Program-made: the position numbers and the translations under genes
Assembly: GCF_002897035.1 (NCBI RefSeq)
Contig: NZ_BAUX01000001.1
Coordinates: 1 to 64,000 of the forward strand
DNA: 64,000 nt
From: Methylopila sp. Yamaguchi
GTDB lineage: Bacteria; Pseudomonadota; Alphaproteobacteria; Rhizobiales; Methylopilaceae
Direction of reading: 5' to 3'
In this document: positions 16,159 to 64,000 of the stretch, piece by piece
Numbering within the stretch: position 1 is the first letter of the stretch
How the letters are laid out: each line of letters opens with the position of its first letter
Notes under the pieces: generated by a model
Seen by the model: only the letters and a program-made list of their open reading frames with translations
Database searches by the model: none
What the model was told of the DNA's origin: nothing

Positions 16159-16896
16159 ATGCCGCTTCCGTTCGACGACAAGGTCTTCTGGGTCACCGGC
16201 GCGTCGGGCGCGCTCGGGCGCGCCACCGCCCTCCTGCTCGCCGAGCGCGGCGCGACCGTGGTCGCCTCGGGCCGCTCGGTCGCGGAGACCGACTTCGGCG
16301 ACGCTCCGCGCATCGACCGCCTTCCTGTCGACGTGACCGACGACGCCAGCGTCCGCGCGGGCTTCGCCGCCCTGCTGGAGCGCCATGGCCGCATCGACGG
16401 TCTTGTCGCCAGCACCAACGTCGGCGCCTTCGCGGACTTTCTCGAGCTGACCGACGACGACTGGCTGCGTGTGATCCAAGCCAAGCTGCTCGGGAGCGTC
16501 CGTCCCGTCCGCGCGGCGCTCCCGACGCTGATCGATCAGGCCAAGGGCGCCATCGTGCTGATCTCGGGCCGCGGCGGCATCGATCCGCCCCCGCAGCACT
16601 TCCCGGGCGCGAGCGTCAACGCCGCGCTCGATCTGCTGGCGCAGAGCCTCGGCCGGCGCTACGGGCCGGACGGCGTGCGCGTCAACGCGGTCGCGCCGGG
16701 TCCCATCCAGTCGCCACGCTCGGCCCGGCTTGCCGGCGCCACCGAGGAGCGGAAGCGCTTCAGCCGCACCGCGACGCCAGGGCCGGGCCTCCCCGCAGAC
16801 GTTGCGGAGGCCGTCGCGTTCCTGCTGTCCGACGCCGCGAAGTTCGTGAACGGGTCGCGGCTTTACGTGGACGGCGGCGGGCAGCCCTACGCGTGA
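16159..16896 (+). CDS. SDR-family protein with altered active site
   Basis: The 245-residue Rossmann protein has WVTGASGALGRATALLLAE for cofactor binding and a C-terminal VAFLLSDAAKFVNGSRLYVD. At the catalytic YxxxK region it reads HFPGASVNAALDLLAQ, where both Tyr and Lys appear replaced, although the preceding Ser remains (VLISGRGG). Such GAxNAAL variants exist in the family and may be non-classical or inactive. ATG 16159 follows GGAG. It stands just before the first monooxygenase, separated from it by a strong hairpin. Confidence 0.8.
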   Translation: MPLPFDDKVFWVTGASGALGRATALLLAERGATVVASGRSVAETDFGDAPRIDRLPVDVTDDASVRAGFAALLERHGRIDGLVASTNVGAFADFLELTDDDWLRVIQAKLLGSVRPVRAALPTLIDQAKGAIVLISGRGGIDPPPQHFPGASVNAALDLLAQSLGRRYGPDGVRVNAVAPGPIQSPRSARLAGATEERKRFSRTATPGPGLPADVAEAVAFLLSDAAKFVNGSRLYVDGGGQPYA

Positions 16897-16943
16897 GCAC
16901 ACCCCGCGCGACGAGGGCCTCCCTATCGCCCGGCCGCTCAACG

Positions 16944-16973
16944 CTTTCGTCGGCGCACGCCCGCCGACGAAAG
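16944..16973 (+). terminator. Hairpin after SDR
   Basis: A perfect 12-base stem CTTTCGTCGGCG/CGCCGACGAAAG with a 6-base loop lies 47 bases after the SDR stop and is followed by AAATTCTTTCTC, a loose T-rich tract. It fits a rho-independent terminator and separates the SDR from the following operon. Confidence 0.6.
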
Positions 16974-17064
16974 AAATTCTTTCTCTCGGAAAAACAAATG
17001 ATAATTTCTATCGAAATTGTGAATTGAGTTAGCCCTGTCCCTCCTGACACGGGACACCGCAGAC
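16970..17064 (+). promoter_or_regulatory. Promoter region of first organosulfur operon
   Basis: This AT-rich stretch just before the LLM gene contains AAAGAA-A-TTCTTT (16970-16982) and AATTTC/GAAATT with a 4-base centre (17003-17018). These are candidate regulator sites; no clear -35/-10 pair is defined. Confidence 0.35.
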
Positions 17065-18423
17065 GTGGCCGCAACGCGAGAGCTCCACCTCAACCTGAAC
17101 TTCCTCCACGCCGGCACCTTCGCCTCCGCGTGGCGTTGGCCGGCGTCGCAGCCGGGCGACTTCGCCGACGTGGAGTTCTACGTCCGCATCGCGCAGCTCG
17201 CGGAGAAGGCGACCTTCGACGCGATCTTCCTCGCGGACGTGCCCTCGCTGTCGGACCAGCCGGGCCACCGCACCTTCAACGCGCTCGAGCCCACGATCAC
17301 GCTCGCCACCATCGCGGCGCGCACCACGCGCATCGGCCTGATCGCCACCGCCTCGTCGAGCTTCAACGAGCCCTACAACATCGCCCGCCGCTTCGCCTCC
17401 CTCGACCATGCGAGCGGCGGCCGCGCCGGCCTCAACGTGGTCACAACGGCCGATCCGTCGACGGCCGCGAACTTCAGCGCGACCCAGCTGTCCCATGGCG
17501 CCCGCTACGACCGCGCGGCCGAGTTCGCGGAGGTGGTGAAGACGCTCTGGGACAGCTGGGAGGACGGCGCGCTGGTGGGCCACAAGGCCTCCGGTAGGCT
17601 CGTCGACACCGCGAAAGTGCATCCCGCCCGGCATGAGGGCGCGCATTTCTCCGTCGCCGGCGCCCTCAACGTGCCGCGCCCTCCCCAGGGCCGGCCGATC
17701 GTGGTGCAGGCCGGAGGCTCCGACGACGGCAAGCGGCTGGCCGCGGAGCACGCCGACGCGGTCTTCACCGTCGCCTACACGCTCGACGACGCAGAGCTTT
17801 ACGCGAACGATCTCCGCGCCCGGCTGGTCCAAGCGGGCCGGTCCCCGTCCGACGTCCTGATCTTCCCGGGCCTCGTCACCGTGATTGGCGGCACCGAGAC
17901 TGAGGCGAAGCGGCGCGAACAGGAGCTCTGGGAGCTGACGCCGATCGAGTACGGGATCGGCCGGCTCGCGAGCATCCTCCAGGTCGATCCCGCCCGCCTG
18001 AAGCTCGACGAGCCCCTGCCCTCTGACCTGACGCTGCCGGCGAACGGCATGCAGACCTTCTTCCGCGGGGCGGTCGCGCTCGCCGCGCGCGGCGGCTTCA
18101 CCGTGCGCCAGCTCATCCGCGCCCAGGGCGGCGGCACCGGGCACCGCATCATCGTCGGGACGCCCGAGCAGATCGCCGACGACATCGAGCGCTGGTTCCG
18201 CGCCGGCGCCGTCGACGGCTTCAACGTGATGCCGGATGTGATCGCCGACGGCTTCCCCGCCTTCGCGGAGCAGGTCGTCCCGCTGCTGCGCGCGAAAGGC
18301 CTGTTCCGCGCCGCCTATGAGGGCCGGACCCTGCGCGACCACTTCGGGCTTGCCCGCCCTCCCCGGCGCGCGGCTGCGCAACCCGTCGAGGCCGGCCGCC
18401 TGCTTCAGGAGAGCTACGCATGA
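17065..18423 (+). CDS. LLM flavin-dependent monooxygenase (NtaA/DszA family) 1
   Basis: This 452-residue TIM-barrel protein has the bacterial-luciferase-like signatures FDAIFLADVPSLS, TASSSFNEPYNIARRFASLD, SGGRAGLNVVTTAD, RPIVVQAGGSDDGKRLAA and DGFNVMPDVI. Members of the NtaA/SnaA/DszA branch use FMNH2 and O2 to cleave C-N or C-S bonds; there is no flavin reductase domain, so reduced FMN must be supplied by another enzyme. The start is GTG 17065. Its stop overlaps the ATG of the DszC-like gene (ATGA), a pairing that recalls DszA/DszC. Exact substrate unknown. Confidence 0.88.
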   Translation: MAATRELHLNLNFLHAGTFASAWRWPASQPGDFADVEFYVRIAQLAEKATFDAIFLADVPSLSDQPGHRTFNALEPTITLATIAARTTRIGLIATASSSFNEPYNIARRFASLDHASGGRAGLNVVTTADPSTAANFSATQLSHGARYDRAAEFAEVVKTLWDSWEDGALVGHKASGRLVDTAKVHPARHEGAHFSVAGALNVPRPPQGRPIVVQAGGSDDGKRLAAEHADAVFTVAYTLDDAELYANDLRARLVQAGRSPSDVLIFPGLVTVIGGTETEAKRREQELWELTPIEYGIGRLASILQVDPARLKLDEPLPSDLTLPANGMQTFFRGAVALAARGGFTVRQLIRAQGGGTGHRIIVGTPEQIADDIERWFRAGAVDGFNVMPDVIADGFPAFAEQVVPLLRAKGLFRAAYEGRTLRDHFGLARPPRRAAAQPVEAGRLLQESYA

Positions 18424-19640
18424 ACGCTCCGAACCCGTCCCCCCGCCCCGTCGATGCGCCGGTCGCCTCCGGTTCGCCGGAGCTCGCCGGGCTGATCGCC
18501 GTCATCGCGGCCGGGGCCGAGGCGCGGGATCGGGGCGAGGCCGACGCGCGCGAGGCGATCGGCCTGGTCAAGGGCGCACGCCTCGGCGTCCTGCGGCTGC
18601 CGAGGGACGCCGGCGGCGCCGGCGCCCGCCTGACCGAGCTGTTCGAGGTCGTGCTGGCGCTTGGCGAGGCCGACTCCAACATTCCCCATATTCTGCGCAA
18701 CCACTTCGCCTTCGTGGAGCGCGCTTTACGGGTCCCCGGCAGCGCCAAGCATCGCCGCTGGCTCGACGAGGCGCGCGCCGGCCGCATCTTCGGCCTCGGC
18801 GCGAGCGAACTCGGCACCCAGAACATCGGCGACGGCTCGAGCGAGACCTCGCTGACGCCCGACGGCGACGGCCACCGGCTGAACGGCGCCAAGTACTACA
18901 GCACCGGCAACTACTACGCCGACATCCTCTACGTGCACGCGCGGACGCCGGAGGGCGAGCGGGTGGCGGCCGTGATCCCGGCCGACCGCGACGGGATCGA
19001 CCGCACCGACGACTGGGACGGCATCGGCCAGCGCCTGACGGCGAGCGGCGCGACGACCTTCGCCAACGTCCGCGTCGAGCCGGACGAGGTCGTGCGGATC
19101 GCGGCGGAAGAGCTGAAGGTGCCGCACGACGCCACCTTCGCGCAGCTCTACCTCACGGCGATCGTCGCCGGGATCCTGAAGGCGGTCGTGCGCGACGCGC
19201 GGGCGCTGCTGACGTCGCGGGGGCGGAACTACTACCACGCCGTCGCGGCCAAGCCGGCGGACGATCCCCTGCTGCAGGAGACGCTCGGCCGGCTGGCGAG
19301 CGCGGCCTATGTCGCGGAGGCGGCGGTGCTGCGGGCGGCCGCCGCGCTCGAGCGCGCCTACGACACCGCGCTTGCCGGCGCGCCCGACGCGGAGCTGTTC
19401 GAGGAGGCCTCGCTCCAGGCCGCCCAGTCCAAGATCGTCATCGACGAACTGGCGCTGACGGCCGCCACGCGGCTGTTCGACGTTGGCGGCGCCTCCGCGG
19501 CCAAGCAGAGCGCGCGGCTCGACCGACACTGGCGGAACATCCGAACGATCTCGTCGCACAACCCGGTCGCCTACAAGGCGCGCGCCGTCGGCCTTCACAC
19601 GCTCGACGGGACGCCGCTCCCGACCGCCGCCTTCTTCTGA
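18420..19640 (+). CDS. DszC/SfnB-like flavoprotein monooxygenase 1
   Basis: The 406-residue protein has the acyl-CoA-dehydrogenase fold but is of the DszC/SfnB type. Visible features are RNHFAFVERAL, FGLGASELGTQN, RLNGAKYYSTGNYYAD, DDWDGIGQRLTASG and the C-terminal RHWRNIRTISSHNPVAYKA with the conserved His. Such enzymes use reduced flavin and O2 to oxygenate sulfur rather than dehydrogenate acyl-CoA. It is translationally coupled to the LLM upstream and 28 bases from the rhodanese downstream, so all three are likely one operon. Confidence 0.85.
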   Translation: MNAPNPSPRPVDAPVASGSPELAGLIAVIAAGAEARDRGEADAREAIGLVKGARLGVLRLPRDAGGAGARLTELFEVVLALGEADSNIPHILRNHFAFVERALRVPGSAKHRRWLDEARAGRIFGLGASELGTQNIGDGSSETSLTPDGDGHRLNGAKYYSTGNYYADILYVHARTPEGERVAAVIPADRDGIDRTDDWDGIGQRLTASGATTFANVRVEPDEVVRIAAEELKVPHDATFAQLYLTAIVAGILKAVVRDARALLTSRGRNYYHAVAAKPADDPLLQETLGRLASAAYVAEAAVLRAAAALERAYDTALAGAPDAELFEEASLQAAQSKIVIDELALTAATRLFDVGGASAAKQSARLDRHWRNIRTISSHNPVAYKARAVGLHTLDGTPLPTAAFF

Positions 19641-21300: not shown

Positions 21301-22184
21301 CGGTCCTCGGAGCGTCAAGCGCCATGACCTACGCCCCCTCCCCCGCACCGGCGAACGGGCCGCTGGCGCTGGTCGACCTCCCGACGCGGCCCAAGGTGCG
21401 GAGCGCGGCCGACGCCTTCGTCCGCGGGCGCCGCTTCGCCTCCCGGGCGCTCGCTCCGGTTCTCATCCTCGTCGTCTGGCAGCTCTCGTCCGCGACCGGC
21501 TGGGTCGACCCCTTGGTGCTGCCGTCGCCGACCGACATCCTCGCAGCCTATGGCGAGCTGACGGCCGACGGTGAACTTTACGACGCGTTGCAGGCGTCGC
21601 TCGCCCGCTCGCTCACCGGCCTCGCCCTCGGCGGCTTCACCGGCCTGCTGCTCGGTCTGTTCGCCGGGCTCTGGCGGGTGGGCGAAGAGCTGTTCGACGC
21701 GCCGCTGCAGATGCTGCGGACGGTGCCGTTCATCGCCATGATCCCGCTGTTCATCATCTGGTTCGGCATCGGCGAGAACGCCAAGATCGCGCTGATCTAC
21801 GCCGCCACCATCTTCCCCGTGTATCTGAACACCTACGCCGGCGTGCGGGGCGTCGACTCCAAGCTGATCGAGGCCGGCCGGGTGTTCGACCTCGGCCCGA
21901 CGCGGATCGCGCTGCGGGTGATCCTGCCCACCGCGCTGCCGTCGATCCTCGTCGGCTTCCGCTACTCGGCGGGCGTCGCCCTGCTCGCGCTGGTCGCCGC
22001 CGAGCAGATCAACGCCCGCTCGGGCATCGGCTACATCCTGATCAACGCCAACGTGAACCAGCGCACCGACGTCATCGTCGCCGGCATCATCCTCTACGCG
22101 GTTCTGGGCATCGTCATCGACATCGTCATGCGCGTGATCGAGCGGATCGCGTTGCCGTGGAGGGGAAAGCTTGTCCTCGCTTAG
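21297..22184 (+). CDS. SsuC/TauC-type ABC permease A
   Basis: This 295-residue inner-membrane protein has about six hydrophobic segments and the BPD-transporter EAA-like loop (RIALRVILPTALPSILVGFR). The N-terminal LVVWQLSSATGWVDPLVLPS is typical of nitrate/sulfonate/taurine permeases. GTG 21297 overlaps the rhodanese stop; ATG 21324 is an alternative start. It forms an importer with the ATPase and binding protein directly downstream. Confidence 0.88.
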   Translation: MTVLGASSAMTYAPSPAPANGPLALVDLPTRPKVRSAADAFVRGRRFASRALAPVLILVVWQLSSATGWVDPLVLPSPTDILAAYGELTADGELYDALQASLARSLTGLALGGFTGLLLGLFAGLWRVGEELFDAPLQMLRTVPFIAMIPLFIIWFGIGENAKIALIYAATIFPVYLNTYAGVRGVDSKLIEAGRVFDLGPTRIALRVILPTALPSILVGFRYSAGVALLALVAAEQINARSGIGYILINANVNQRTDVIVAGIILYAVLGIVIDIVMRVIERIALPWRGKLVLA

Positions 22185-22971
22185 TCTCGCCCGCCTGCCG
22201 GACCCTGCGCCCCCGGAAGGCCCGTCCCGAGCCCCGCGCCGGTTCGACGACGAGCCGCTTGCGGTGCGCCTCCAGGGCGTCCGGCGGACCTTCGGCGCCC
22301 GCGCGGTCATCAACGGCGTCGATCTCGAGGTCCGACGCGGCGAATTCGTCTCGCTTCTTGGGCGCTCCGGCACGGGCAAGACGACGCTGCTGCGCATCCT
22401 CGCAGGCCTCGACCAGGCCGACGGCGGCGAGGCGCGCGTACCCCAGGCGCGGTCCGTCGTGTTCCAGGAGCCGCGGCTGGTGCCGGCGAAGCGCGTCTGG
22501 CGGAACGTGACGCTCGGCCATCGGCGCGGGCGCGAGACCCGCAGGATCGCCGAAGCGGCGCTCGAGGAAGTGGGCCTCGGCGGCCACGCCGACGCCTGGC
22601 CGCGGACGCTCTCCGGCGGCGAAGCGCAGCGCGTCGCGCTCGCCCGCGCGCTCGCCAAGGAGCCGAGCCTGCTCCTGTTGGACGAACCTTTCGCAGCCCT
22701 CGACGCGCTCACCCGCATCCGCATGCACGATCTGGTGGAGCAGCTCTGCCGACGGCACCGGCCGGCCGTCGTTCTCGTCACCCATGACGTGGACGAGGCG
22801 ATCCTGCTGTCGGACCGGGTGCTCGTGCTCGCCGACGGCGGCATCCGCTTCGACGCGCAGGTGGAGCTTGCGCGCCCGCGCGGCCAGACCGAGCCGGGCT
22901 TCGCGGCGCTGCGCGCCCGCCTCCTGGCCGAACTCGGCGTCGCCGGCCCCGCCGATCCGCATCACGCCTGA
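22171..22971 (+). CDS. SsuB/TauB-type ABC ATPase A
   Basis: The 266-residue ATPase shows Walker A GRSGTGKTT, the Q-loop VVFQEPRL, signature LSGGEAQR, Walker B LLLLDEPF and switch His in VTHDVDEA. The start is TTG 22171, overlapping the permease end by 14 bases. It energises the aliphatic sulfonate-type importer of this operon. Confidence 0.87.
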   Translation: MSSLSLARLPDPAPPEGPSRAPRRFDDEPLAVRLQGVRRTFGARAVINGVDLEVRRGEFVSLLGRSGTGKTTLLRILAGLDQADGGEARVPQARSVVFQEPRLVPAKRVWRNVTLGHRRGRETRRIAEAALEEVGLGGHADAWPRTLSGGEAQRVALARALAKEPSLLLLDEPFAALDALTRIRMHDLVEQLCRRHRPAVVLVTHDVDEAILLSDRVLVLADGGIRFDAQVELARPRGQTEPGFAALRARLLAELGVAGPADPHHA

Positions 22972-23009
22972 TCCCCTCTTTGCCTTTTTCCGTTCCCGGA
23001 GACCGCACC

Positions 23010-24029
23010 GTGACCTTCAAGTTCATCTCGCCGACGCGCCGCGCGGCGCTCGCCGCCGCGGCCCTCCTGTTCGCTGCGGGTCCCGGCTGGGCCGACGCCC
23101 CGAAGACCAAGCTGCTCGTCGGCTTCCAGGACTGGACCCTGCCCGAAACGGTCGGGGCCTCCGGCGTGCTCGAGGGCGCACCTTATGAGATCCAGTGGGT
23201 GGTGCTGCCGGGTCCCGCGTCGCAGCTCTCGGCGCTCTACTCCAAGGCCATCGACGTCGGCCACATGGGCGACACCTCGCTCATCATCGAGCAGGGCAAG
23301 TCCAAGACGCCGTGGGTCGCCGGCGAGCAGCCGCTGCAGATCGTCGCCGGCTGGCGGGCGACCGACGCCAAGTACCCGCCCATCATCACGGTCGGCCGGG
23401 CGGAGGCCGGGGTAAACACGCTGGAGGATCTGCGCGGCAAGACCTGGGCGTTCAACTTCGGCGGCTTCAACTACGTGCAGTACCTGCTGTCGTCGCTGAA
23501 GTCCGGCCTAGGCAAGAAGGACTTCGAGCCGGTCCAGCTCGCCGACCAGAACGCGACCTCGGCCGCCTTCCTGTCCGGCAAGGTCGACGCCTTCTCCGGC
23601 AGCACCACCGTCGTCGCCGAGGCGATCGAGAAGGGCTACGCCAAGGTCCTGCAGACCAGCGACGAGCTGGGCATTCCCGCGCTGAACGTGCTGACCGCGC
23701 GCGGCGATGTGCTGCGCGACCCGGCGAAGAAGGCCGCGCTCGCCGACTTCCTCGACCGCGTGCGCAAGCACTGGGCCTGGTACGCCGCCAACACCGACCG
23801 GGTGGAAAAGCTCCTCATCGAGAAGATCAAGCAGAGCCCGGCGCGCGCGAAGATTTCGACCGAGTACTCGAAGGCAACGTTCCAGCCGCTCGACACCGAC
23901 CTGATCAAGCGCGAACAGCGGATAGCCGACGTGCTGTTCGAGGCTAAGGCGATCCCGAACAAGATCGACGTCAGCCTCGAATTCGCGAGCGAGTTCAACG
24001 CCTCGACCGTGCCGACGGTGCAGAACTGA
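23010..24029 (+). CDS. SsuA-type sulfonate-binding protein A
   Basis: A Tat-like or Sec signal (RRAALAAAALLFAAGPGWA, cleaved near ADAP) precedes a periplasmic NMT1/THI5-type binding domain of about 310 residues. Features include ASQLSALYSKAIDVGHMGDT, LEDLRGKTWAFNFGGFNY and FLSGKVDAFSGSTTVVAEA, as in aliphatic sulfonate-binding proteins. The start is GTG 23010 behind CCGGAGACC. It completes the permease-ATPase-binding protein set and precedes the second LLM by 25 bases. Confidence 0.85.
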   Translation: MTFKFISPTRRAALAAAALLFAAGPGWADAPKTKLLVGFQDWTLPETVGASGVLEGAPYEIQWVVLPGPASQLSALYSKAIDVGHMGDTSLIIEQGKSKTPWVAGEQPLQIVAGWRATDAKYPPIITVGRAEAGVNTLEDLRGKTWAFNFGGFNYVQYLLSSLKSGLGKKDFEPVQLADQNATSAAFLSGKVDAFSGSTTVVAEAIEKGYAKVLQTSDELGIPALNVLTARGDVLRDPAKKAALADFLDRVRKHWAWYAANTDRVEKLLIEKIKQSPARAKISTEYSKATFQPLDTDLIKREQRIADVLFEAKAIPNKIDVSLEFASEFNASTVPTVQN

Positions 24030-24054: not shown

Positions 24055-25470
24055 ATGACCGCACGCCGCGAAATCCGGCTGAACGCCTTCCACATGAACG
24101 CGCCCGGCCATTCCTGGGCCGGACTGTGGCGGCACCCGCGCGACCGGTCGGTCGACTACAACACGCCGGAGTACTGGGCCGATCTCGCCCGCATCGCGGA
24201 GCGCGGCAAGTTCGACGGCGTGTTCCTGGCGGACGTGTTCGGGACCTACGACGTCTACGGCGGCTCGGCTGACGCCGCACTCGCCGGAGCGGCGCAGGCG
24301 CCGAACGCCGATCCGACGCTGGTCGTGCCGATCATGGCGCAGGTCACCGAGCACCTGGGCTTCGGCGTCACTGCGAACCTAACCTACGAGCACCCCTACC
24401 AGTTCGCCCGCCGCTTCGCGACGCTCGACCACCTGACCCGCGGCCGCGTCGGCTGGAACGTCGTCACCGGTTATCTCGAGAGCGGCGCAAAGGGCATGGG
24501 GCTCGCCGAGGCCCGGGCCCATGACGACCGCTACGCCGCCGGCGAAGACTTCCTGGAGGCCGTCTACAAGCTCTGGGAAGGCAGCTGGGAGGACGACGCC
24601 GCGGGCCGCGACCGGGCGCGGGCGGTGTTCACCGATCCGCGCAAGGTCCACCGCGTCCGACATGACGGTCCCTACTACAAGGTCGACGGCCTGGCGCTCA
24701 GCGAGCCGTCCCCGCAGCGCACGCCGGTGCTCTATCAGGCGGGGACCTCGTCACGCGGAAAGCGCTTCGCCTCCAGACACGCGGAGGCGATCTTCCTCAA
24801 CGGGCAGACCAAGAAGATGGTCGCGGACAGCGTGCGGGCCATCCGCGAGGGCGCGCGCGAATTCGGCCGCGACCCGCGCGACATCCAGTTCTTTCTCGGC
24901 ACGACCGTCATCGTCGCGCCGACCCGCGCGGAAGCCGTTGAGAAGCAGCGCGAGATCGCGCGCTACCTCGACGTCGCGGGGCAGCTCGCCCTGCTCTCCG
25001 GCTGGACCGGCATCGACTTCGCGCGGTTCTCGCCGGACGAGGCCGTCCGCTACGTCGAGAGCAACGCCCTGCGCTCGCTGGTCGAGAACCTGACCGTCAA
25101 CAGCGACCGCCCGTTCACCTATGGCGAACTCGCGGGCTTCAATCCCGTCGGCGCCCGCGCTGGCTTCGTCGTCGGCTCGCCTTCGGAGGTCGCGGACGAA
25201 CTGATCTCCTGGGTCGAGGACACCGACATCGACGGCTTCAACCTCGTGCGGGTCATCGCCCACGAGACGCTCGAGGATTTCGTCGATCTGGTGGTGCCCG
25301 AGCTTCAGTCCCGCGGCGTGTTCAAGACCGAGTACCGCACCGGCACGCTGCGCGAGAAGCTGTTCCCGGGCGAAGGCCCCCGCCTGCCGACGCGCCACCC
25401 CGCCGCGGCCCACCGCCGGAAGGCGGTGGCGGCGCAATCGATCGTCGAGCCCGCGCAAGCCGAGGCCTGA
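24055..25470 (+). CDS. LLM flavin-dependent monooxygenase (DszA-like) 2
   Basis: This 471-residue protein has the DszA/SnaA/NtaA organisation: IRLNAFHMNAPGHSWAGLWR, FDGVFLADVFGTYDVYGG, GRVGWNVVTGYLESGAKGMG, RTPVLYQAGTSSRGKRFASR and DIDGFNLVRVIAHETLEDF. The TYDVYGG and VTGYLESGAKGMG elements resemble dibenzothiophene-sulfone monooxygenase more than the other LLMs here. FMNH2 and O2 would be used to open a C-S bond of a sulfone. It lies in the operon behind SsuA-type protein A. Confidence 0.87.
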   Translation: MTARREIRLNAFHMNAPGHSWAGLWRHPRDRSVDYNTPEYWADLARIAERGKFDGVFLADVFGTYDVYGGSADAALAGAAQAPNADPTLVVPIMAQVTEHLGFGVTANLTYEHPYQFARRFATLDHLTRGRVGWNVVTGYLESGAKGMGLAEARAHDDRYAAGEDFLEAVYKLWEGSWEDDAAGRDRARAVFTDPRKVHRVRHDGPYYKVDGLALSEPSPQRTPVLYQAGTSSRGKRFASRHAEAIFLNGQTKKMVADSVRAIREGAREFGRDPRDIQFFLGTTVIVAPTRAEAVEKQREIARYLDVAGQLALLSGWTGIDFARFSPDEAVRYVESNALRSLVENLTVNSDRPFTYGELAGFNPVGARAGFVVGSPSEVADELISWVEDTDIDGFNLVRVIAHETLEDFVDLVVPELQSRGVFKTEYRTGTLREKLFPGEGPRLPTRHPAAAHRRKAVAAQSIVEPAQAEA

Positions 25471-29410: not shown

Positions 29411-29584
29411 GAGCGGTTTCGGGTCTCGATGACCTAGTGACACCACGTCAGTCCGGGCGAAGTCCCGGAATCCATGATCACGCCGGCGGAGGCTGATCTC
29501 GACCGGGCTCATGGGCCCCGGGACAGCTCCGGGGCGACGGCGGAACGTGAGGCGCCGCCGCGGCCCGCGGACCTGAAACCGCTC
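29411..29584. repeat. Long inverted-repeat element between lysR and LLM 4
   Basis: Outer arms GAGCGGTTTCGGGTC (29411-29425) and GACCTGAAACCGCTC (29570-29584) pair over 15 bases with one mismatch. Inside are CCGGG/CCCGG (29453-29468) and CCCCGG/CCGGGG (29516-29534) hairpins. The right arm ends on the last base of the minus-strand LLM stop codon. It looks like a palindromic intergenic repeat family member that would also act as terminator for both convergent genes. Confidence 0.55.
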
Positions 29585-32869: not shown

Positions 32870-32870
32870 C

Positions 32871-37769: not shown

Positions 37770-37774
37770 GGCGG

Positions 37775-43859: not shown

Positions 43860-43867
<8 letters not shown>
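42911..43867 (-). CDS. DppF-type ABC ATPase, set 2
   Basis: The 318-residue ATPase shows Walker [25 protein letters not shown], signature FSGGQRQR, Walker [13 protein letters not shown] and the CRFRTRCPHAVERCA cysteine cluster near the C-terminus. The start ATG 43867 overlaps the DppD end by 8 bases. An in-frame upstream codon exists but lies inside dppD. Confidence 0.87.
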
Positions 43868-44872
<1,005 letters not shown>

Positions 44873-44876
<4 letters not shown>

Positions 44877-46749: not shown

Positions 46750-46801
46750 CGCGAGCCCGCGCCGAGGCCAGAAAGAACGAAGCGGGTCACGGGTCGCGCC
46801 T

Positions 46802-53208: not shown

Positions 53209-53217
53209 GTCTCCCCC

Positions 53218-55748: not shown

Positions 55749-56999
55749 TCAGCCGGGCGCCTGAATCGGCCGCAGGCGTCGTCCGAGGGCGTCGGCCGCG
55801 ACGACGCCGAGGACGACGAACATGAGGAAGATCCAGCCGGACAGCGCGCCGGCGTGGATGCCCGACAGCAGCACGCCCACCGTGCAGCCGAGCGCGGTCA
55901 TCGCTCCCCACCCCATCAGCGCGCCGCCGACGAGCCCGCGGACGATCTGGCCGCCCGTGGGCGCCGCCGGCCTGAACCGCCCGGACACGAGCGCCGCGGC
56001 GAAGCTCGCGGCGACGAGGCCGAGGACGAACAGGCCGTTCTCCGACAGCAGCGTCTCCTTGACGACCGTCGCGCAGCCGCGCAGGCCGTCCAGGCCGAAA
56101 AGGGTGTCCGGCAACCACCCGGCGGCCGACGCCGCGGTGCGGGCGGCGCTGCCGATCTCGGCCGTGACGCCGAGCGGCGCGACCCGAAGATAGCTGAGCG
56201 TCGCGATCGCGCCCACAAGCAGACCCGCGATCGCCGGCGGCCAACGCTCCACGAAAACCGCGTGCGCGACGCCGGGATGCGGAACGGACGGCGTCGCCGG
56301 CTTGGCCCGCGTCTGCGCCAGCCACGCCAAAGCCCCGAGGACCGCGAGCGTCGCCACGAGCCAGACGGGATAGCCGAGATGCGCCGGCAGCCACACGGAG
56401 GGCGTCTCGACAGTCAGTGCGAGGTAGATCGGGTTCCAGGTGAGAAAGCCGAGGACGAAGCCGGCAACGGCCCCGAGCACCGCGAAGGGCGAGGTCGGAG
56501 AGCCCTCCCCCAGCCGGTAAAGATGGGCCGACAGGCACGATCCCGACGCCGCCATGCCGACGCCGAAGACGAACGCCGCCAACGCAAGCGCAGGGCCGAC
56601 CGGGCCGACGTGCGCGGTTGGCGGAAGCCGCCCGCCGAAGGGGTTCGGCAGCCAGGCGCCGAACACCGCCGCATAGCCGATCGTCCCGGCGGCGAGCGCC
56701 ACGAGGATCGCGAGAACGCCGCGTGCGTCGCCGTCGCGCAGCAGGTCGCGGAGATTGCACAGGAAGCAGAACCGGCCGCGCTGGAGCACGATCCCGAAGG
56801 CCGCCCCGGCGAGGAGCGCGAACGACTGCCGCTGGCCGATCGCGCCCGGCGTCTGCCCGAGCCCGTAGGCGGCGACGGCGAGCCCCCCGAACACGAGCAA
56901 GGCGATCCCAGCGCGCGCCGGCGAAGTGATGGAAGACGCGGACATGAGCGGACCGACAGGCGCGGGCGCCCGGCGCTTCGGCGGCCGGACGCCCGACAT
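55749..56999 (-). CDS. YeeE/YedE-type thiosulfate transporter
   Basis: The 416-residue membrane protein has about nine to eleven hydrophobic segments and the conserved Cys motifs of YeeE/TsuA: GRFCFLCNLRD, GMAASGSCLSAHLYRLGEGS and MTALGCTVGVLLSG, positioned to relay thiosulfate by S-H contacts. It probably imports thiosulfate or a related sulfur anion. It follows the sulfurtransferase by 24 bases in the same direction. Start could also be ATG 56945. Confidence 0.85.
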   Translation of the reverse strand: MSGVRPPKRRAPAPVGPLMSASSITSPARAGIALLVFGGLAVAAYGLGQTPGAIGQRQSFALLAGAAFGIVLQRGRFCFLCNLRDLLRDGDARGVLAILVALAAGTIGYAAVFGAWLPNPFGGRLPPTAHVGPVGPALALAAFVFGVGMAASGSCLSAHLYRLGEGSPTSPFAVLGAVAGFVLGFLTWNPIYLALTVETPSVWLPAHLGYPVWLVATLAVLGALAWLAQTRAKPATPSVPHPGVAHAVFVERWPPAIAGLLVGAIATLSYLRVAPLGVTAEIGSAARTAASAAGWLPDTLFGLDGLRGCATVVKETLLSENGLFVLGLVAASFAAALVSGRFRPAAPTGGQIVRGLVGGALMGWGAMTALGCTVGVLLSGIHAGALSGWIFLMFVVLGVVAADALGRRLRPIQAPG

Positions 57000-58094: not shown

Positions 58095-59462
58095 ATGGCG
58101 AAACGTCGCGACAAGCTGAAGCTAGGGGCCTTCCTCTATCCAACCGGCCACCACGTCGCCGCATGGCGTCACCCGCAAGCGCAGGCCGACGCGGGAGTGA
58201 ACTTCCGGCACTACGTGGCGCTGGCGAAAAAGGCCGAAGCGGCGAAGTTCGACCTCGTCTTCATGGCCGACAGCGTCGCCGTGCGCGGCACGGACGTGGA
58301 CGTTCTCAGCCGCGGCGCCCTGCGCTACGTCGCGCAGTTCGAGCCGCTGACGCTGCTCACGGCGCTGTCCGCGGTCACCACGAACCTCGGCTTCGTGGCC
58401 ACCGCCTCCACAACCTACAATGAGCCCTTCCATCTCGCCCGCGCCTTCGCCTCGCTGGACCAGATCTCCGGCGGTCGCGGCGGCTGGAACCTCGTGACGT
58501 CATCGAACGAGACCGAAGCTCTGAATTTCGGGCTCGACGCCCATCCCGCGCACGCCGACCGCTACGAGCGGGCGCGGGAGTTCGCGGCCGTGGTCGAGGG
58601 CCTGTGGGACAGCTGGGAAGACGACGCCTTCGTCCGCGACAAGGACAGCGGGATCTATTTCGCCCGCGACAAGCTCCATGTGCTCCATCACCGCGGCAAG
58701 CACTTCCAGGTGAAGGGGCCGCTCAACGTCGCCCGATCTCCCCAGGGGCGTCCGGTGGTGGTGCAGGCAGGCTCTTCGGAAGCGGGCAAGCAGCTTGCGG
58801 CGGAGAGCGCCGAGGTGATCTTCACCGCGCAGCAGACGCTGGCCGACGCGACCGCGTTCTACGCCGACGTGAAGGGGCGGCTCGCCCAGCACGGCCGAGA
58901 GCCGGACGACCTGAAGATCATGCCGGGCGTCTTTCCCGTCGTCGGGCGCACCGAGGCGGAGGCGCGGGAGAAGTACGAGGAGATCCAGTCCCTCATCCAT
59001 CCCGCGGTCGGCCTGTCGCTGCTGTCGCACATGACCGGCGGGCTCGACCTGTCGTCCTACGATCTCGACGGACCGCTGCCTGTGGAGGCGCTGCCCGTGA
59101 CCGAGGGTGGCAAAAGCCGGCAGACCCTGCTGATCGAACTCGCCACCCGCGAGAATCTCACCATTCGGCAGCTCTATCTCCGCATCGCCGGCGCCCGCGG
59201 ACACTGGACGCTGATCGGCACCCCCGAGCAGATCGTCGACCAGCTCGAAGAGCGCTTCCAGAACTACGGCGCGGACGGCTTCAACGTGATGCCGCCGCAT
59301 CTTCCGGTTGGCCTCGACGATTTCGTCGCGCTCGTCGTCCCGGAGCTGCGCCGCCGCGGCCTGTTCCGCGAGGAATACGAGGGCCGGACGCTGCGCGAAA
59401 ACCTCGGCCTCCGCCGACCGGAGCATTTCGCCCGCCGCGCCGTCGCGCAGGCCGCCGAATGA
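58095..59462 (+). CDS. LLM flavin-dependent monooxygenase (YxeK/NtaA type) 5
   Basis: The 455-residue protein begins LKLGAFLYPTGHHVAAWRHP, followed by KFDLVFMADSVAVRG, STTYNEPFHLARAFASLDQI, GGRGGWNLVTSSNETEALNF and AEVIFTAQQTLADATAF. It is closely similar to LLMs 3 and 6, pointing to local duplication. It would use FMNH2/O2 to cleave a C-S bond or related. ATG 58095 follows GGGAG. It overlaps the ATPase D start. Confidence 0.87.
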   Translation: MAKRRDKLKLGAFLYPTGHHVAAWRHPQAQADAGVNFRHYVALAKKAEAAKFDLVFMADSVAVRGTDVDVLSRGALRYVAQFEPLTLLTALSAVTTNLGFVATASTTYNEPFHLARAFASLDQISGGRGGWNLVTSSNETEALNFGLDAHPAHADRYERAREFAAVVEGLWDSWEDDAFVRDKDSGIYFARDKLHVLHHRGKHFQVKGPLNVARSPQGRPVVVQAGSSEAGKQLAAESAEVIFTAQQTLADATAFYADVKGRLAQHGREPDDLKIMPGVFPVVGRTEAEAREKYEEIQSLIHPAVGLSLLSHMTGGLDLSSYDLDGPLPVEALPVTEGGKSRQTLLIELATRENLTIRQLYLRIAGARGHWTLIGTPEQIVDQLEERFQNYGADGFNVMPPHLPVGLDDFVALVVPELRRRGLFREEYEGRTLRENLGLRRPEHFARRAVAQAAE

Positions 59463-60385
59463 GCGTCTCTAGCGAAGACTTCGTCGCCCGAGGCCGCACT
59501 ACGCGAGGACGCGACATGGACGCACGCGGCGGAACGGCGGCGGCGCATCTGGAGGTCACCGACGTCGGGAAGCGCTTCGCCGTCAACGGCGAGGCGTTCG
59601 CCGCCCTCGACCACGTGGCCCTCGGCGTCGCCAAGGGCGGGTTCGTCACCATCGTCGGGGCGAGCGGCTGCGGGAAGTCCACCCTGCTGCGCCTGATCGC
59701 CGGGCTCGACCGCCCCACGTCAGGCGCGCTGCGGCTCGGCGGCGTCCCTATCGACGGGCCGAGCCTCGACCGAGGGATTGTGTTCCAGGAGCCGCGGTTG
59801 TTTCCGTGGCTCACCGTCGCCGGCAACGTAATGCTCGGCCTCGAAAACGCGCAGATGCCGAAGTCCGCGAAGCGCGCGGCCGTCGCCAAGCATCTCGCGC
59901 TCGTCGGCCTCACCGCCTTCGCCGATGCCTATCCGCACCAACTCTCCGGCGGCATGGCACAGCGCGCGGCCATCGCCCGCGGCCTCGTCAACCGCCCGGC
60001 CGTGCTGCTGCTGGACGAGCCCTTCGGCGCGCTCGACGCGCTGACGCGGACGCGACTCCAGGGCGAGCTTCAGGCGATCTGGGCGCAGGAGAAGATCACG
60101 ACCGTTTTCGTCACCCACGACGTCGACGAGGCGGTCTATCTCGGCGACCGCATCGTGGTGATGGCGCCGCGTCCGGGCCGCATCGCGAAGGTGTTCGAGA
60201 ACGCCCGCCCGCGCCCGCGCGAGCGGACCGACGCCGCGCTCGTTCATCTGCGCAACGCGGTGCTCCGCGAACTGGAGGCGACGCTCGGCGCCGAAGCCCC
60301 CGAACCAACCCGCGCGGGCCCGCAGGCCGCCGCGCGGCCGCAGCGCCCTGCCGCCCTTCGGCTGCCGGGCGCCGCCGGCGCCTGA
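59459..60385 (+). CDS. SsuB/TauB-type ABC ATPase D
   Basis: The 308-residue ATPase has Walker A GASGCGKST, IVFQEPRLFPWLT, signature LSGGMAQR, Walker B LLLLDEPFGALDA and VTHDVDEAVYLG. A 30-residue lead and a Pro/Ala-rich C-tail make it longer than its paralogs; an internal ATG at 59516 would give a shorter protein. ATG 59459 overlaps the LLM 5 stop. It sits between two LLM paralogs; its permease is not in the window. Confidence 0.85.
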   Translation: MSVSSEDFVARGRTTRGRDMDARGGTAAAHLEVTDVGKRFAVNGEAFAALDHVALGVAKGGFVTIVGASGCGKSTLLRLIAGLDRPTSGALRLGGVPIDGPSLDRGIVFQEPRLFPWLTVAGNVMLGLENAQMPKSAKRAAVAKHLALVGLTAFADAYPHQLSGGMAQRAAIARGLVNRPAVLLLDEPFGALDALTRTRLQGELQAIWAQEKITTVFVTHDVDEAVYLGDRIVVMAPRPGRIAKVFENARPRPRERTDAALVHLRNAVLRELEATLGAEAPEPTRAGPQAAARPQRPAALRLPGAAGA

Positions 60386-60397: not shown

Positions 60398-61750
60398 ATG
60401 ACCGCCCCCCGCCAGATGAAGCTGAACGCCTTCATCCACGCCACCGGCCATCATGTCGCCGCCTGGCGCCACCCCGACGCGCAGGCCGACGCCGGCGTCA
60501 ACTTCGAGCACTACGCGCAGCTTGCGAAGACCGCGGAAGCGGCGAAGTTCGACGCGCTGTTTCTGGCCGACACCGTCGCGATCCGCGATGGGAACATCGA
60601 GAGCGCTAGCCGCACCGCGCGATACATCGTGCAGTTCGAACCGCTGACGCTGCTGGCGGGCCTCGCCGCCGTCACTGAACGGCTCGGACTGATCGCCACG
60701 GCCTCGACCACCTACAACGAGCCCTATCACATCGCCCGCAAGTTCGCGTCGCTCGACCACATCTCGGAGGGTCGCGCGGGCTGGAATCTCGTGACCTCCG
60801 CGACCGAGGGCGAGGCGCTGAACTTCAGCCGCGAGAAGCATCTGGAGCACGCGCTTCGCTACGAGCGGGCGCGCGAGTTCGCCGAAGTCGTGACCGGCCT
60901 GTGGGACAGCTACGAGGACGACGCCTTCCCGCGCGACAAGGCCGAGGGGCGCTTCTTCGATCCGGACAAGCTCCACGTGCTGAACCACGCGGGCAAGCAC
61001 TTCCGCGTGCGGGGGCCGCTCAACACGGCGCGATCGCCGCAGGGGCGACCAGTCATCGTGCAGGCGGGCTCCTCCGAGGCCGGCAAGCAGCTCGCGGCGG
61101 AGACGGCGGACGTCGTGTTCACCGCCCAGCAGACGCTGGAAGAGGCGCAGGCGTTCTACGCCGACGTGAAGGCGCGCGCCGTCGCCGCCGGCCGCTCGGC
61201 GGACGCGATAAAGATCCTGCCCGGCGTCTCGCCGGTGGTCGGGCGCACACGCGCGGAGGCGCAGGCGACGTTCGAGAAGCTCCAGTCCCTGATCCACCCG
61301 GTGGTCGGCGTCTCGCTGCTGTCCAGCATGATCGGCGGCTTCGACCTGTCCGGCTACGACCTCGACGGTCCGGTGCCGGACCTGCCCGAGACCAACAACG
61401 GCAAGAGCCGGCAGGCGCTGCTGTTCGGCATCGCGAAACGCGAGAACCTGACGATCCGCGGCCTCTATGAGTGGATCGCCGGCGCCCGCGGGCACTGGAC
61501 CGTCGTGGGCTCCCCCGAGGAGATCGCGGACCAGCTGCAGGAGCGCTTCGAACAGGGCGGCGCCGACGGCTTCAATGTCATGCCGCCGTATCTCCCGGGC
61601 GGCTTGGACGATTTCGTCGCGCTCGTCGTGCCGGAGCTCCGCCGCCGCGGCCTGTTCCGCACCGAGTACGAGGGCCGGACGCTGCGCGAAAACCTCGGCC
61701 TGCCCTACCCGCACCACTCGGCCGCCGGCCTCGCCCAGGCGGCGGAGTGA
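60398..61750 (+). CDS. LLM flavin-dependent monooxygenase (YxeK/NtaA type) 6
   Basis: The 450-residue protein begins MKLNAFIHATGHHVAAWRHP and shares EAAKFDALFLADTVAIRD, STTYNEPYHIARKFASLDHI, GRAGWNLVTSATEGEALNFS and DVVFTAQQTLEEAQAFYADV with LLMs 3 and 5. ATG 60398 follows AAGGAGAG well placed. It precedes the intergenic repeat and two binding proteins. Confidence 0.87.
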   Translation: MTAPRQMKLNAFIHATGHHVAAWRHPDAQADAGVNFEHYAQLAKTAEAAKFDALFLADTVAIRDGNIESASRTARYIVQFEPLTLLAGLAAVTERLGLIATASTTYNEPYHIARKFASLDHISEGRAGWNLVTSATEGEALNFSREKHLEHALRYERAREFAEVVTGLWDSYEDDAFPRDKAEGRFFDPDKLHVLNHAGKHFRVRGPLNTARSPQGRPVIVQAGSSEAGKQLAAETADVVFTAQQTLEEAQAFYADVKARAVAAGRSADAIKILPGVSPVVGRTRAEAQATFEKLQSLIHPVVGVSLLSSMIGGFDLSGYDLDGPVPDLPETNNGKSRQALLFGIAKRENLTIRGLYEWIAGARGHWTVVGSPEEIADQLQERFEQGGADGFNVMPPYLPGGLDDFVALVVPELRRRGLFRTEYEGRTLRENLGLPYPHHSAAGLAQAAE

Positions 61751-61764: not shown

Positions 61765-61925
61765 GGCTCCCCCTCACCCACCGTTGCGCGGCGACCTCTC
61801 CCACCGGTGAGAGGTGAAGACCAGCGCCTCTTCTCAAACGTCGGCGCGCTCGCGCAAGGCCGCCGTCGCTTACCTCTCCCCGGAGGGGAGAGGTCGGCCC
61901 GAAGGGCCGGGTGAGGGGGCTCTCC
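61765..61925. repeat. Palindromic intergenic repeat with double hairpin
   Basis: After CCCCCTCACCCACC, the element carries ACCTCTCCCC-gga-GGGGAGAGGT (61873-61895) and CGGCCC-gaa-GGGCCG (61896-61910), ending GGGTGAGGGGG which mirrors the first edge. It separates LLM 6 from the tandem binding proteins and could stabilise or end transcripts. A related element lies inside dppD at 33843-33911. Confidence 0.65.
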
Positions 61926-61950
61926 GCTATCCCGTAAGGATTGAAACGAA

Positions 61951-63012
61951 ATGCGCTTCCGCCCCCTCCTCCTCGGCCTCATCGCTCTGCTTGCCGCGAC
62001 CGCCGCCTCCGCCGAGCCGCTGACCATCCGTCTCGCCTTCTCGCAGGTTGGGACCGCCGGTCAGCAGTTCGCCGGCATCCAGACCTCCGCCATCGCCCAC
62101 GCCCGTCATTACCTGGAGGACGAGTTCAGGAGCGAGGACGTGAAGATCGAATGGACCTTCTTCCGCGGCGCCGGGCCCGCCACCAACGAGGCGGTGGCGA
62201 ACGGTCAGATCGATTTCTTCTCGCAGGGCGACCTGCCCTCGCTCGCCGGCCGCGCGGCTGGGCTGAAGACCAAGCTGCTCGCGAACGTCGCCGCACGCCA
62301 GAGCCGCTACCTCGCGGTGCGCCCGGACAGCGACATCACGGGCGTCGCGGACCTTCGGGGCAAGAAGGTCTCGCAGCACCAGGGCACCAACATCACGCTA
62401 TCAATCCCGAAGATCCTCGCGAACCACGGGCTGACCGACCGCGACGTCCGCTTCATCAACATGGACAACGCGACGGCGGTCGCCGCGCTGCTGAAGGGCG
62501 ACACGGACGCGGCGTTCGGGACCCAGCAGCTGCTGGAGCTCGCGAACAAGGGCCAGGTCAAGATCGTCTACTCGACCAAGACCGACGACCCGAGGACCAC
62601 CAGCAACTCCGCATTCTTCGTCACCGAAGATTTCGAGGCCAAGCATCCCGATGTCACCTACCGCGTCGTCAAGGCGCTGACCAAGGCCGCGGCCTGGGCG
62701 TCCGACGAGGCGAACCGCGAAGCGGTGTTCGAGACCTGGGCGCTGAGCGGCGTGCCTGTCGAAACCTATCGGGCGGAGTTCGAAGGCCAGACAGTCGCCT
62801 ACCGCAACTCGCCGCTGATCGACGACTTCCTCATCGAGTTCTACCGGGAGCAGGCCAAGCAGGCCAAAGCCTTCGGCTATGTCCGCAAGGAGGTCTCGGT
62901 CGACGGCTGGTTCGAGCCCAAATACCTTACGCGCGCGATCGCGGAACTCGGACTGAAGGACACCTGGAAGCCGCTCGACGCCGACGGCAAGGTCGTGGCG
63001 GTGAACCAGTGA
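61951..63012 (+). CDS. SsuA-type binding protein D1 (Sec-exported)
   Basis: A Sec signal (LLLGLIALLAATAASAEP) is followed by a 353-residue NMT1/SsuA domain: VKIEWTFFRGAGPATNEAVA, NGQIDFFSQGDLPSLAGRAA, LKTKLLANVAARQSRYLAV and DLRGKKVSQHQGTNITLSIP. It is a close paralog of the next gene. GTGA overlap links both. It probably recognises an aliphatic sulfonate or similar. Confidence 0.87.
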   Translation: MRFRPLLLGLIALLAATAASAEPLTIRLAFSQVGTAGQQFAGIQTSAIAHARHYLEDEFRSEDVKIEWTFFRGAGPATNEAVANGQIDFFSQGDLPSLAGRAAGLKTKLLANVAARQSRYLAVRPDSDITGVADLRGKKVSQHQGTNITLSIPKILANHGLTDRDVRFINMDNATAVAALLKGDTDAAFGTQQLLELANKGQVKIVYSTKTDDPRTTSNSAFFVTEDFEAKHPDVTYRVVKALTKAAAWASDEANREAVFETWALSGVPVETYRAEFEGQTVAYRNSPLIDDFLIEFYREQAKQAKAFGYVRKEVSVDGWFEPKYLTRAIAELGLKDTWKPLDADGKVVAVNQ

Positions 63013-64000
63013 GCGCCGCCCTCACCCGCCGCGCGCTGCTCACGGTCGGCGCCGCAGCCGGCGCCCTCGCACTGGCGCCCCGGCCGGCCCGCGCCGACGC
63101 GCTGACGGTGCGGATCGGCTACGCGGCCATCGGCGCCGACAACGCCCCCTTCGCCAACGGCACCATCGCCGCCACCGCCCACGCCGCAAACGCGCTCGAG
63201 AAGGCCTTCGCAGACCAGCCGGACGTGAAGATCGAATGGTTTTTCTTCCGCGGCGCAGGCCCCGCCGTGAACGAGGCGCTGGCGAACGGCCAACTGGACC
63301 TCGCCTACCAAGGCGACCTGCCCGCGATCGCCGCCCGCGCGAACGGCCTCAAGACCAGGCTCCTGCTCGCCGCAGGCGCCCGCACGCCGCTCTACCTCGC
63401 CGTCCAGCCGGACAGCGCAATCGCGACGGTCAAAGACCTCAGGGGCAAGAAGGTCGCGCTGTTCCGCGGCACGAGCGGGCATCTGGCCGCCGTCAAAGTG
63501 CTGACCGCGAACGGCCTGACCGAGCGTGACCTGCAGATCGTCAATCTGGACTACGCCGCCGCAGTCGCGGCCATCGCCAACAAGGACATCGACGCGATCT
63601 TCGGCCAGCTCAACCTGATCGGGCTGAAGGACAAGAGCGTCGCCAAGATCGTCTACACCACCAAGGGCGACCGCCCGGAGTTCGGCCGCAACGGGCACGT
63701 GCTGGCGACGGAGGCCTTCGAGCGGTCGCGTCCGGAGATCGTGCAGAAGGTGGTGACCACGCTGGTCCGCACCGCGCACTGGTCGTCGCTTCCCGAGAAC
63801 CGCGCGGCGCTGATCGACCTCTGGGCCAAGTCCGGCGTCGAGAAGGGCATCCTCGCCCAGGATCTCGAAGGCGACGATCTCGCCGTGCGCTCTTCGCCGG
63901 TCATCGACGATTTCATCCGCGCGCAGTACGCCGCTCAGGCGCGAGCCGCCCGCGAAAACGGCCTCGTGCGCCGTGACGTCGACACCGACGGCTGGTTCGA
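63009..64000 (+). CDS. SsuA-type binding protein D2 (Tat-like signal), partial
   Basis: The frame opens at GTG 63009 and leaves the window at 64000 after about 330 codons. A twin-arginine-like signal (TRRALLTVGAAAGALAL) replaces the Sec signal of the upstream paralog. The mature part, from ADALTVRIGYAAIG through VKIEWFFFRGAGPAVNEALA and NGQLDLAYQGDLPAIAARAN, is similar to D1 over its full visible length. The permease for this set is presumably beyond the edge. Confidence 0.85.
   Translation, partial: MSAALTRRALLTVGAAAGALALAPRPARADALTVRIGYAAIGADNAPFANGTIAATAHAANALEKAFADQPDVKIEWFFFRGAGPAVNEALANGQLDLAYQGDLPAIAARANGLKTRLLLAAGARTPLYLAVQPDSAIATVKDLRGKKVALFRGTSGHLAAVKVLTANGLTERDLQIVNLDYAAAVAAIANKDIDAIFGQLNLIGLKDKSVAKIVYTTKGDRPEFGRNGHVLATEAFERSRPEIVQKVVTTLVRTAHWSSLPENRAALIDLWAKSGVEKGILAQDLEGDDLAVRSSPVIDDFIRAQYAAQARAARENGLVRRDVDTDGWF

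Follow-up and report, generated by a model that had tools for sequence, protein, structure and literature searches.

The first 64,000 nucleotides of contig NZ_BAUX01000001.1 of Methylopila sp. Yamaguchi (C1:1-64000, hereafter the window; genome of 4.42 Mb in 39 contigs) contain most of a dense block of 45 called genes, the majority encoding importers and flavin oxygenases. This block was probably acquired horizontally and would serve as a modular island for scavenging organosulfur compounds, with importers coupled to flavin oxygenases; homology and gene context make its function in sulfur metabolism probable. The block starts with a nitroreductase-family gene (NTR) at 14,885 and ends with two permeases at contig position 65,670, i.e. 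past the window end. A first-pass annotation of this DNA had placed it at 16159 to 64000 (~48 kb); the dense block was found as described, but both limits had to be moved outwards. The inventory given there, i.e. six luciferase-like monooxygenases (LLM), four proteins of acyl-CoA dehydrogenase (ACAD) fold, four Ssu/Tau-type import sets, two Dpp importers, two carboxymuconolactone decarboxylase-family (CMD) proteins, a multi-rhodanese protein, cysE, YeeE and an exported sulfurtransferase, was recovered completely with Pfam and NCBIfam (Table 1). It did not include a reductase candidate belonging to the island, the boundary at a tRNA-Gly gene and the recurrence of the modules in other organisms.

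Genes in the window were called with a codon-usage script and the products were profiled against Pfam and NCBIfam. The caller was trained on the window and overlooks genes in loci of lower GC content; therefore, most comparisons across genomes were performed by tblastn, and mutual best matches were counted at a coverage of at least 60%. For rarity counts, at most ~10 candidates were scored per genome.

Sixteen PF00296 matches are present in the genome, six of which are LLM1 to LLM6 of the island. None of the six passes the SfnG model (TIGR04021, cut-off 382.95 bits; LLM4 205 bits, the other five 57-88 bits) or the SsuD/MsuD model (TIGR03565, cut-off 518.2; 53-88 bits). Likewise, no ACAD passes the models for SfnB (TIGR04022, cut-off 430.9; three ACADs 256-261 bits, ACAD3 42) or DszC (NF043015, cut-off 850; three ACADs 117-150 bits, ACAD3 25). 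These cut-offs rule out an assignment of the island to the SfnG/SsuD or the DszC pathway, and the earlier proposal of an SfnG/SsuD route encoded here is not supported. Enzymes above the cut-offs are located elsewhere: SfnG (600 bits) and SfnB (620 bits) are neighbours on contig C7; contig C8 carries one SsuD together with the MsuE-type reductase, and the other SsuD is encoded at C1:172.8-174.0 kb (639 and 587 bits for the two SsuD). With this canonical set encoded outside it, the island has the appearance of an accessory layer added to a core. The SsuD on C1 belongs to another small organosulfur locus (C1:164.8-174.0 kb) with an SfnB-like ACAD, a DmoA-type LLM and ATP-binding cassette (ABC) importers; the ACAD-LLM pair of this locus occurs in at least four genomes of the genus.

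Five of the six LLM belong to the NtaA/DmoA subfamily (TIGR03860, cut-off 279.7; 489-617 bits), which LLM4 fails with 134.7 bits. YtnJ/MoxC is the closest solved relative of LLM1 and LLM3 and nearly so of LLM5 and LLM6; YtnJ is the same protein as CmoJ. For LLM2, the best match in the PDB is the dimethyl-sulfide monooxygenase 6ak1, but the alkane monooxygenase 3b9n is close behind. ACAD1, ACAD2 and ACAD4 are nearest to DszC, TdsC, MsuC and the structure 8cda. Flavin reductases of PF01613 (four in the genome) and PF03358 (seven in the genome) are absent from the island. The nearest PDB entries of NTR are NfrA1 (3n2s, 140.6 bits) and 1bkj (120.8 bits), the flavin reductase of Vibrio harveyi. Homologs of NTR adjoin LLM genes in Xanthobacter agilis, Aquabacter cavernae and two rhizobial plasmids, and one in Pseudomonas oryzihabitans is 3.3 kb away from an LLM gene. 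Judged from its sequence relatives, NTR is likely the island's own reductase supplying FMNH2.

Importers comprise four sulfonate-type (Ssu/Tau) sets and two peptide-type (Dpp) systems; the permease or ATPase names of 11 ABC importer genes were confirmed by a scan of the Pfam family library. Sulfur-linked genes inside the island encode CysE (over cut-off), a YeeE-like transporter, an exported rhodanese and a four-rhodanese protein. The YeeE-like protein matches PF04143 and stays far below the cut-offs of two models of the thiosulfate transporter TsuA (88 bits of 645 for NF041049, 82 of 400 for NF052577). The four-rhodanese protein has one Cys, and its C-x-G-R-T-R loop is conserved at 11 of 11 homologous places, which suggests one catalytic rhodanese and three without Cys. 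On a Shinella plasmid, its gene is accompanied by a short-chain dehydrogenase/reductase (SDR) gene (downstream, 32% identity), a TauE-type sulfite exporter and two LLM, and on a Comamonadaceae plasmid by cysteine dioxygenase, an ACAD, an LLM, ssuDE and a CysB-type regulator. The SDR gene also adjoins it in X. agilis and X. aminoxidans (60-61% identity), and the two-domain rhodanese adjoins YeeE in genome G004, Tardiphaga, X. agilis and X. autotrophicus. A role of the multi-rhodanese protein as partner of cysteine dioxygenase, which adjoins it in two of three annotated plasmid loci, was considered and rejected: the Methylopila genome has no CDO_I match, hence, the protein must work otherwise here. 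The X. agilis contig carries three four-rhodanese genes in a single organosulfur region between 32 and 87 kb, and a cysteine-dioxygenase-like gene adjoins one of the three.

The modules are found again in other genomes. In a 127-kb stretch of X. agilis, 37 of the 45 island proteins have mutual best matches (31 at an identity of at least 50%), and the island-like genes are spread over ~21-135.6 kb of a 137.6-kb contig. An 80-kb stretch of X. aminoxidans gave mutual best matches for 30 of the 45 proteins (23 with an identity of at least 50%), and one of equal length in Tardiphaga for 19 (14 with an identity of at least 50%). As a control, 33 non-island proteins of the same contig were compared to these regions, and none of them matched at thresholds of 50% identity and 60% coverage; with the same thresholds, 35 of the 45 island proteins matched in X. 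agilis, 30 in X. aminoxidans, 19 in Tardiphaga, 8 in X. autotrophicus and 4 each in Aquabacter and P. oryzihabitans. LLM3, LLM5, LysR, CMD2, DppC2, two set-c genes and the second binding protein of set d were without a mutual best match in the X. agilis region. Micro-operons retained are SDR/four-rhodanese/import set a/ACAD2/LLM1, SBP5-1/Dpp1/aldo/keto reductase (AKR), cassette b and YeeE/rhodanese. For cassette b, counts refer to the best 80 of 304 relatives; order and strand are preserved in 75 of these 80 loci and four of the other five are truncated by a contig end. SBP5-1, the binding protein of Dpp importer 1, matched 244 plasmid records, of which four highly ranked ones were opened and two of these compared by sequence. 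All four are rhizobial plasmids on which the Dpp1/AKR module occurs with ACADs, LLM1- and LLM3-like genes, a reductase and a GcvA-type LysR regulator, although some genes of this layout are unlisted or split in one record (L199). Within the genus, pieces of the island are found in several genomes, and nothing like the entire island was seen in the same-genus searches and loci made.

A tRNA-Gly(CCC) gene is located to the right of the block at 73,760-73,833 on the minus strand. The nearest two relatives, G007 and G010 (nucleotide identity 92%), align from 73,759 and 73,756 onwards, i.e. from the 3' end of this tRNA to the right; thus, synteny breaks in both where it is expected to break for a tRNA-inserted island, and the entire window lies in DNA which is extra at this place relative to them. 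Comparison of C1:1-73,755 with 13 loci of the same genus (20 or 40 kb per genome) gave few aligned pieces, all below 600 bases, at 74% identity. The tRNA-Gly gene is present in the corresponding neighbourhood in nine of ten same-genus genomes checked, the exception being G004. We infer that the extra DNA was probably inserted at tRNA-Gly. The GC content inside the block is ~0.68-0.735 (2-kb windows) and lower outside, with 0.55-0.70 at 3-15 kb (1-kb windows) and 0.61-0.69 at 66-72 kb.

For the reactions, the substrates and a sulfur-responsive control we infer the following scheme from homology and gene context. Each ABC importer would bring one class of organosulfur compound into the cell, where the DszC-like ACAD-fold enzymes would oxygenate the sulfur of thioethers or sulfoxides. 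DmoA/YtnJ-like LLM would then cleave the C-S bond to yield an aldehyde and a sulfinate, sulfonate or sulfite. The aldehyde may be disposed of by SDR and AKR, and FMNH2 would be provided by the NfrA/FRP-like NTR together with the core MsuE. Sulfinates and sulfonates may be passed to the core SsuD, and sulfite would be reduced and joined to O-acetylserine from CysE to form cysteine. Thiosulfate and sulfane sulfur would be managed by the single-Cys four-rhodanese protein, the exported rhodanese and YeeE. According to a report on Acinetobacter baylyi, ACAD-fold oxygenases convert dimethyl sulfide (DMS) to dimethyl sulfone, LLM perform later C-S cleavage and one reductase serves all (PMC13352529); its authors argue that an added monooxygenase gene alone is enough to widen the sulfur diet. 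By analogy, the island would fit this idea on a larger scale.

Several observations weigh against an organosulfur island of this kind. An exact repeat of the tRNA region longer than 13 bp, as an att site, was not found in C1:1-100000, nor was an integrase in a scan of part of the ORFs, the left end of this DNA being a contig end. All five sulfonate-type binding proteins score below the SsuA cut-off (73.5-148.9 bits; TIGR01728, cut-off 163.5), and the LysR regulator is of GcvA type, not CysB. In the A. baylyi report, no LLM oxidised DMS (PMC13352529). The NtaA/DmoA family also holds enzymes acting on EDTA, nitrilotriacetate, alkanes, riboflavin and hexachlorobenzene. LLM2/ACAD2-like pairs adjoin branched-chain-amino-acid-type permeases in G006, G027, G066 and G100 (PF02653 verified in one), hence, an importer for sulfonates cannot be deduced from the presence of these oxygenases. 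Cassette b occurs mostly without the rest of the island, often in Pseudomonas, and a DppF2- or SBP5-2-like gene (50% identity) was found in the locus DNA in only 3 of the 80 loci. Its neighbours include a nitrilase in 2/80 loci and a cytochrome bd oxidase in 1/80, the latter also near cassette b on each of the two plasmids opened among 20 records that matched; its sulfur role is therefore the least sure. ACAD3, which is encoded in this cassette, has acyl-CoA dehydrogenases as best structural matches and, by eye, is without the C-terminal S-H-N stretch of the other three ACADs.

Three of these points, i.e. family membership, permeases and cassette b neighbours, lead to the question whether some or most modules oxidise nitrogen or other xenobiotic compounds, like NtaA, EmoA, RutA and HcbA1 of the same families. 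This is an unlikely explanation, as the island contains CysE, YeeE and two rhodaneses, homologous loci have a sulfite-exporter, ssu and CysB context, and ACAD1, 2 and 4 have DszC, TdsC, MsuC and 8cda as closest matches.

Salvage of cysteine from S-alkylated peptides or cysteines is another conceivable main function: Dpp would import glutathione-like conjugates or S-alkyl-cysteinyl peptides, an ACAD would form the sulfoxide and YtnJ/CmoJ-like LLM would release the thiol. In its favour are the YtnJ/MoxC relationship of LLM1, LLM3 and, nearly, LLM5 and LLM6, and the finding that S-alkylcysteine sulfoxides are cleaved by CmoJ, for which YxeK and DszA are named as homologues (PMC10863075). Both SBP5 proteins match the glutathione-binding GsiB model (143 and 167 bits, below the cut-off of 594), but the Opp4A and NikA models give them higher scores. 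Since, in addition, the 45 called genes include no recognised N-acetyltransferase for amino acids, deacetylase or peptidase, and this function leaves both the DmoA-like LLM2 and the importers of sulfonate type unaccounted for, we consider cysteine salvage improbable as the general function.

A mosaic of unrelated operons, acquired at a tRNA hotspot and without a shared function, would account for the separate distribution of cassette b and for the left part of the window (1-14 kb), which carries unrelated genes; it is highly improbable, given that the same modules occur together again in X. agilis, X. aminoxidans and Tardiphaga. Least probable of all is an island for carbon and energy, converting methylated sulfur compounds to formaldehyde for the serine cycle: Methylopila is a methylotrophic genus, LLM2 is DmoA-like and serine-cycle genes (FchA and malate-CoA ligase beta, over cut-off) follow 18 kb further on and would permit the use of formaldehyde from methylthio compounds, but these lie across tRNA-Gly, outside the extra DNA, and many importers with slow two-component enzymes suit sulfur scavenging better, which is also the simpler reading.

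Organosulfur scavenging was compared to known systems, and the region matches no single pathway among them, in agreement with the first-pass annotation, which had described it as a dense, probably organosulfur region with sulfonate- and peptide-type importers. The sfn/msu/ssu pathway (SfnG, MsuC, SsuD, MsuE), including the DMS pathway of A. baylyi (PMC13352529), shares the two-component oxygenases of ACAD fold and LLM type, Ssu-type importers and a reductase acting in trans; the island enzymes, however, are below the SfnG, SfnB and SsuD cut-offs, and the island adds two peptide-type importers and an NfrA/FRP-like reductase. The Dsz/Tds 4S pathway for dibenzothiophene (DszA, DszC, DszD) likewise has a DszC-like ACAD beside an LLM of DszA's family, but the island ACADs fall far short of the DszC model on which this comparison is based. 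The CmoO/CmoJ salvage of S-alkylcysteine in Bacillus subtilis (PMC10863075) resembles the island in LLM1, 3, 5 and 6, whereas the island has no recognised genes for amino-acid acetylation or deacetylation and an ACAD in place of CmoO. The similarity of LLM2 to DmoA is qualified by the nearly equal alkane monooxygenase score. Also comparable is a cluster on rhizobial plasmids (e.g. pRapFH23a) with the layout ACAD-LLM-DUF3088-ACAD-LLM-NTR-LysR-SBP5-FAD protein-LLM-ACAD-AKR-DppFDCB. It shares the LLM1, LLM3, NTR, LysR, SBP5-1, AKR and Dpp1 types with the island (44-73% identity), but comprises ~20 kb, its displayed stretch is without a sulfonate-type set, rhodanese, YeeE and CysE, its ACADs have merely 28-40% identity to those of the island, and its FAD/NAD(P)-binding genes gave no tblastn match to the FAD/NAD(P)-binding oxidoreductase of the island. 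In the open-access literature (titles and beginnings of abstracts), no description of the island, the Xanthobacter region or the rhizobial cluster was found. The enzyme classes and their logic are already known; a description of the large, probably mobile assembly was not found.

A more specific proposal is tentative: the Dpp importers with AKR, ACAD, LLM, the GcvA-type LysR and the NfrA/FRP-like reductase might form an undescribed mobile system which imports intact sulfur-containing peptides or peptide-like thioethers and desulfurises them intracellularly through flavin oxygenases served by a reductase of the system. The region of ~115 kb in X. agilis and the island in Methylopila would then represent large assemblies of such modules. 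If the general reading as an organosulfur-scavenging island is correct, peptide-type importers would take part in sulfur scavenging and NfrA/FRP-like proteins would be a candidate second class of reductase partners for these oxygenases. More generally, alphaproteobacteria would broaden their organosulfur diets through large and probably mobile assemblies that connect to a core of SfnG, SsuD and MsuE, and recurrent modules of importer, oxygenase and reductase would allow substrates to be assigned one by one.

Table 1. Features of the organosulfur block and their supporting matches (bit scores from family models or PDB comparisons; G numbers denote genomes).
Feature	Coordinates	Strand	Evidence
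NTR, candidate nitroreductase-fold NfrA/FRP-like NAD(P)H-flavin reductase	14885..15751	-	PF00881
SDR dehydrogenase	16159..16896	+	PF13561
LLM1, NtaA/DmoA family, YtnJ/MoxC closest solved	17065..18423	+	TIGR03860 488.9 bits; 1tvl 318 bits
ACAD1, DszC/SfnB-like flavin oxygenase	18420..19640	+	TIGR04022 258 bits (cut-off 430.9); 8cda/TdsC/DszC 138-139 bits
Four-rhodanese protein, single Cys C204, CAGRTR loop	19669..21300	+	PF00581, four stretches
Import set a, SsuCBA-type (permease, ATPase, binding protein)	21324..24029	+	family profiles
LLM2, DmoA-like	24055..25470	+	PDB 6ak1 452.5 bits; 3b9n 435 bits
LLM3, NtaA family, YtnJ/MoxC closest	25516..26871	+	70% identity to LLM of two rhizobial plasmids
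ACAD2, TdsC/SfnB-like	26909..28162	+	profiles and PDB matches
LysR regulator, GcvA type, not CysB	28377..29369	+	NF008352 304.6 bits (cut-off 288)
LLM4, intermediate between SfnG and RutA	29584..30762	-	SfnG model 205 bits (cut-off 382.95); PDB SfnG 169, RutA 156 bits
DppBCDF-type importer 1	30885..34903	+	Pfam BPD_transp_1, OppC_N, oligo_HPY; 63-72% identity in X. agilis and two rhizobial plasmids
AKR	34924..35997	+	PF00248; 72-75% identity, same importer adjacent elsewhere
SBP5-1, binding protein of importer 1	36162..37769	+	PF00496
Cassette b: CMD1, divergent ACAD3, ATPase, binding protein, permease	37899..42327	+	Pfam; ACAD3 fold model
CMD2	42350..42898	-	PF02627
DppFDCB-type importer 2 and SBP5-2	42911..48373	-	profiles; 64-73% identity in Tardiphaga
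FAD/NAD(P)-binding oxidoreductase	48672..50114	-	PF13434/PF13454; 46-47% identity in two Xanthobacter regions
ACAD4	50137..51360	-	profiles and PDB matches
Import set c, SsuABC-type	51422..54309	-	profiles; 58-73% identity in G121 and G131; not kept in X. agilis
CysE serine O-acetyltransferase	54798..55631	+	TIGR01172 217.7 bits (cut-off 210.65)
YeeE-like sulfur transporter	55749..56894	-	PF04143 197 bits; TsuA models far under cut-off
Two-domain rhodanese, signal-like N-terminus, one Cys C256	57024..57944	-	PF00581
LLM5, NtaA family	58095..59462	+	TIGR03860 599 bits
Import set d, ATPase	59516..60385	+	PF00005
LLM6, NtaA family	60398..61750	+	TIGR03860 617 bits; 81% identity in G003
Import set d, two binding proteins (second cut at window end); two permeases beyond, to 65,670	61951..64000	+	profiles

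Regarding ACAD3, the possibility of a fragment was ruled out. Its profile match to the other ACADs covers residues 7-252 (98.2%), the whole acyl-CoA dehydrogenase fold is present in a confident structure model, and identity across 29 aligned homologs is 53-75%. The 50 structural matches listed do not include DszC, TdsC or MsuC, which alone proves nothing. A cyanide or nitrile role was also considered for cassette b and regarded as weak, a nitrilase being found in 2/80 loci. In M. jiangsuensis, an Rrf2-family regulator (PF02082) directly precedes the cassette and relatives of it occur in two Xanthobacter, whereas the interval ahead of the cassette in the Methylopila island (37,769-37,899) contains no gene. 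In G008 (one contig, 88% completeness), tblastn recovered the cassette b homologs as several separate fragments, perhaps owing to sequencing errors. For CMD2, 139 pattern matches to viral contigs were obtained, none of which was confirmed as a relative.

Further genes were noted around the block. Between its right end and the tRNA (C1:68.5-73.2 kb), a RepB/ParB plasmid-partition fragment, a helix-turn-helix regulator and an AAA/M41 protease-like gene are located. Beside the left end, the ORF at 14167-14838 (+) resembles, by eye, the start of an IS6-type transposase and has no Pfam match. At the very left, an RTX/serralysin-like protein (Peptidase_M10, HemolysinCabind) is encoded at 1-2892 (-) and runs off the contig start; it is followed by an OEP efflux protein at 4053-5042.

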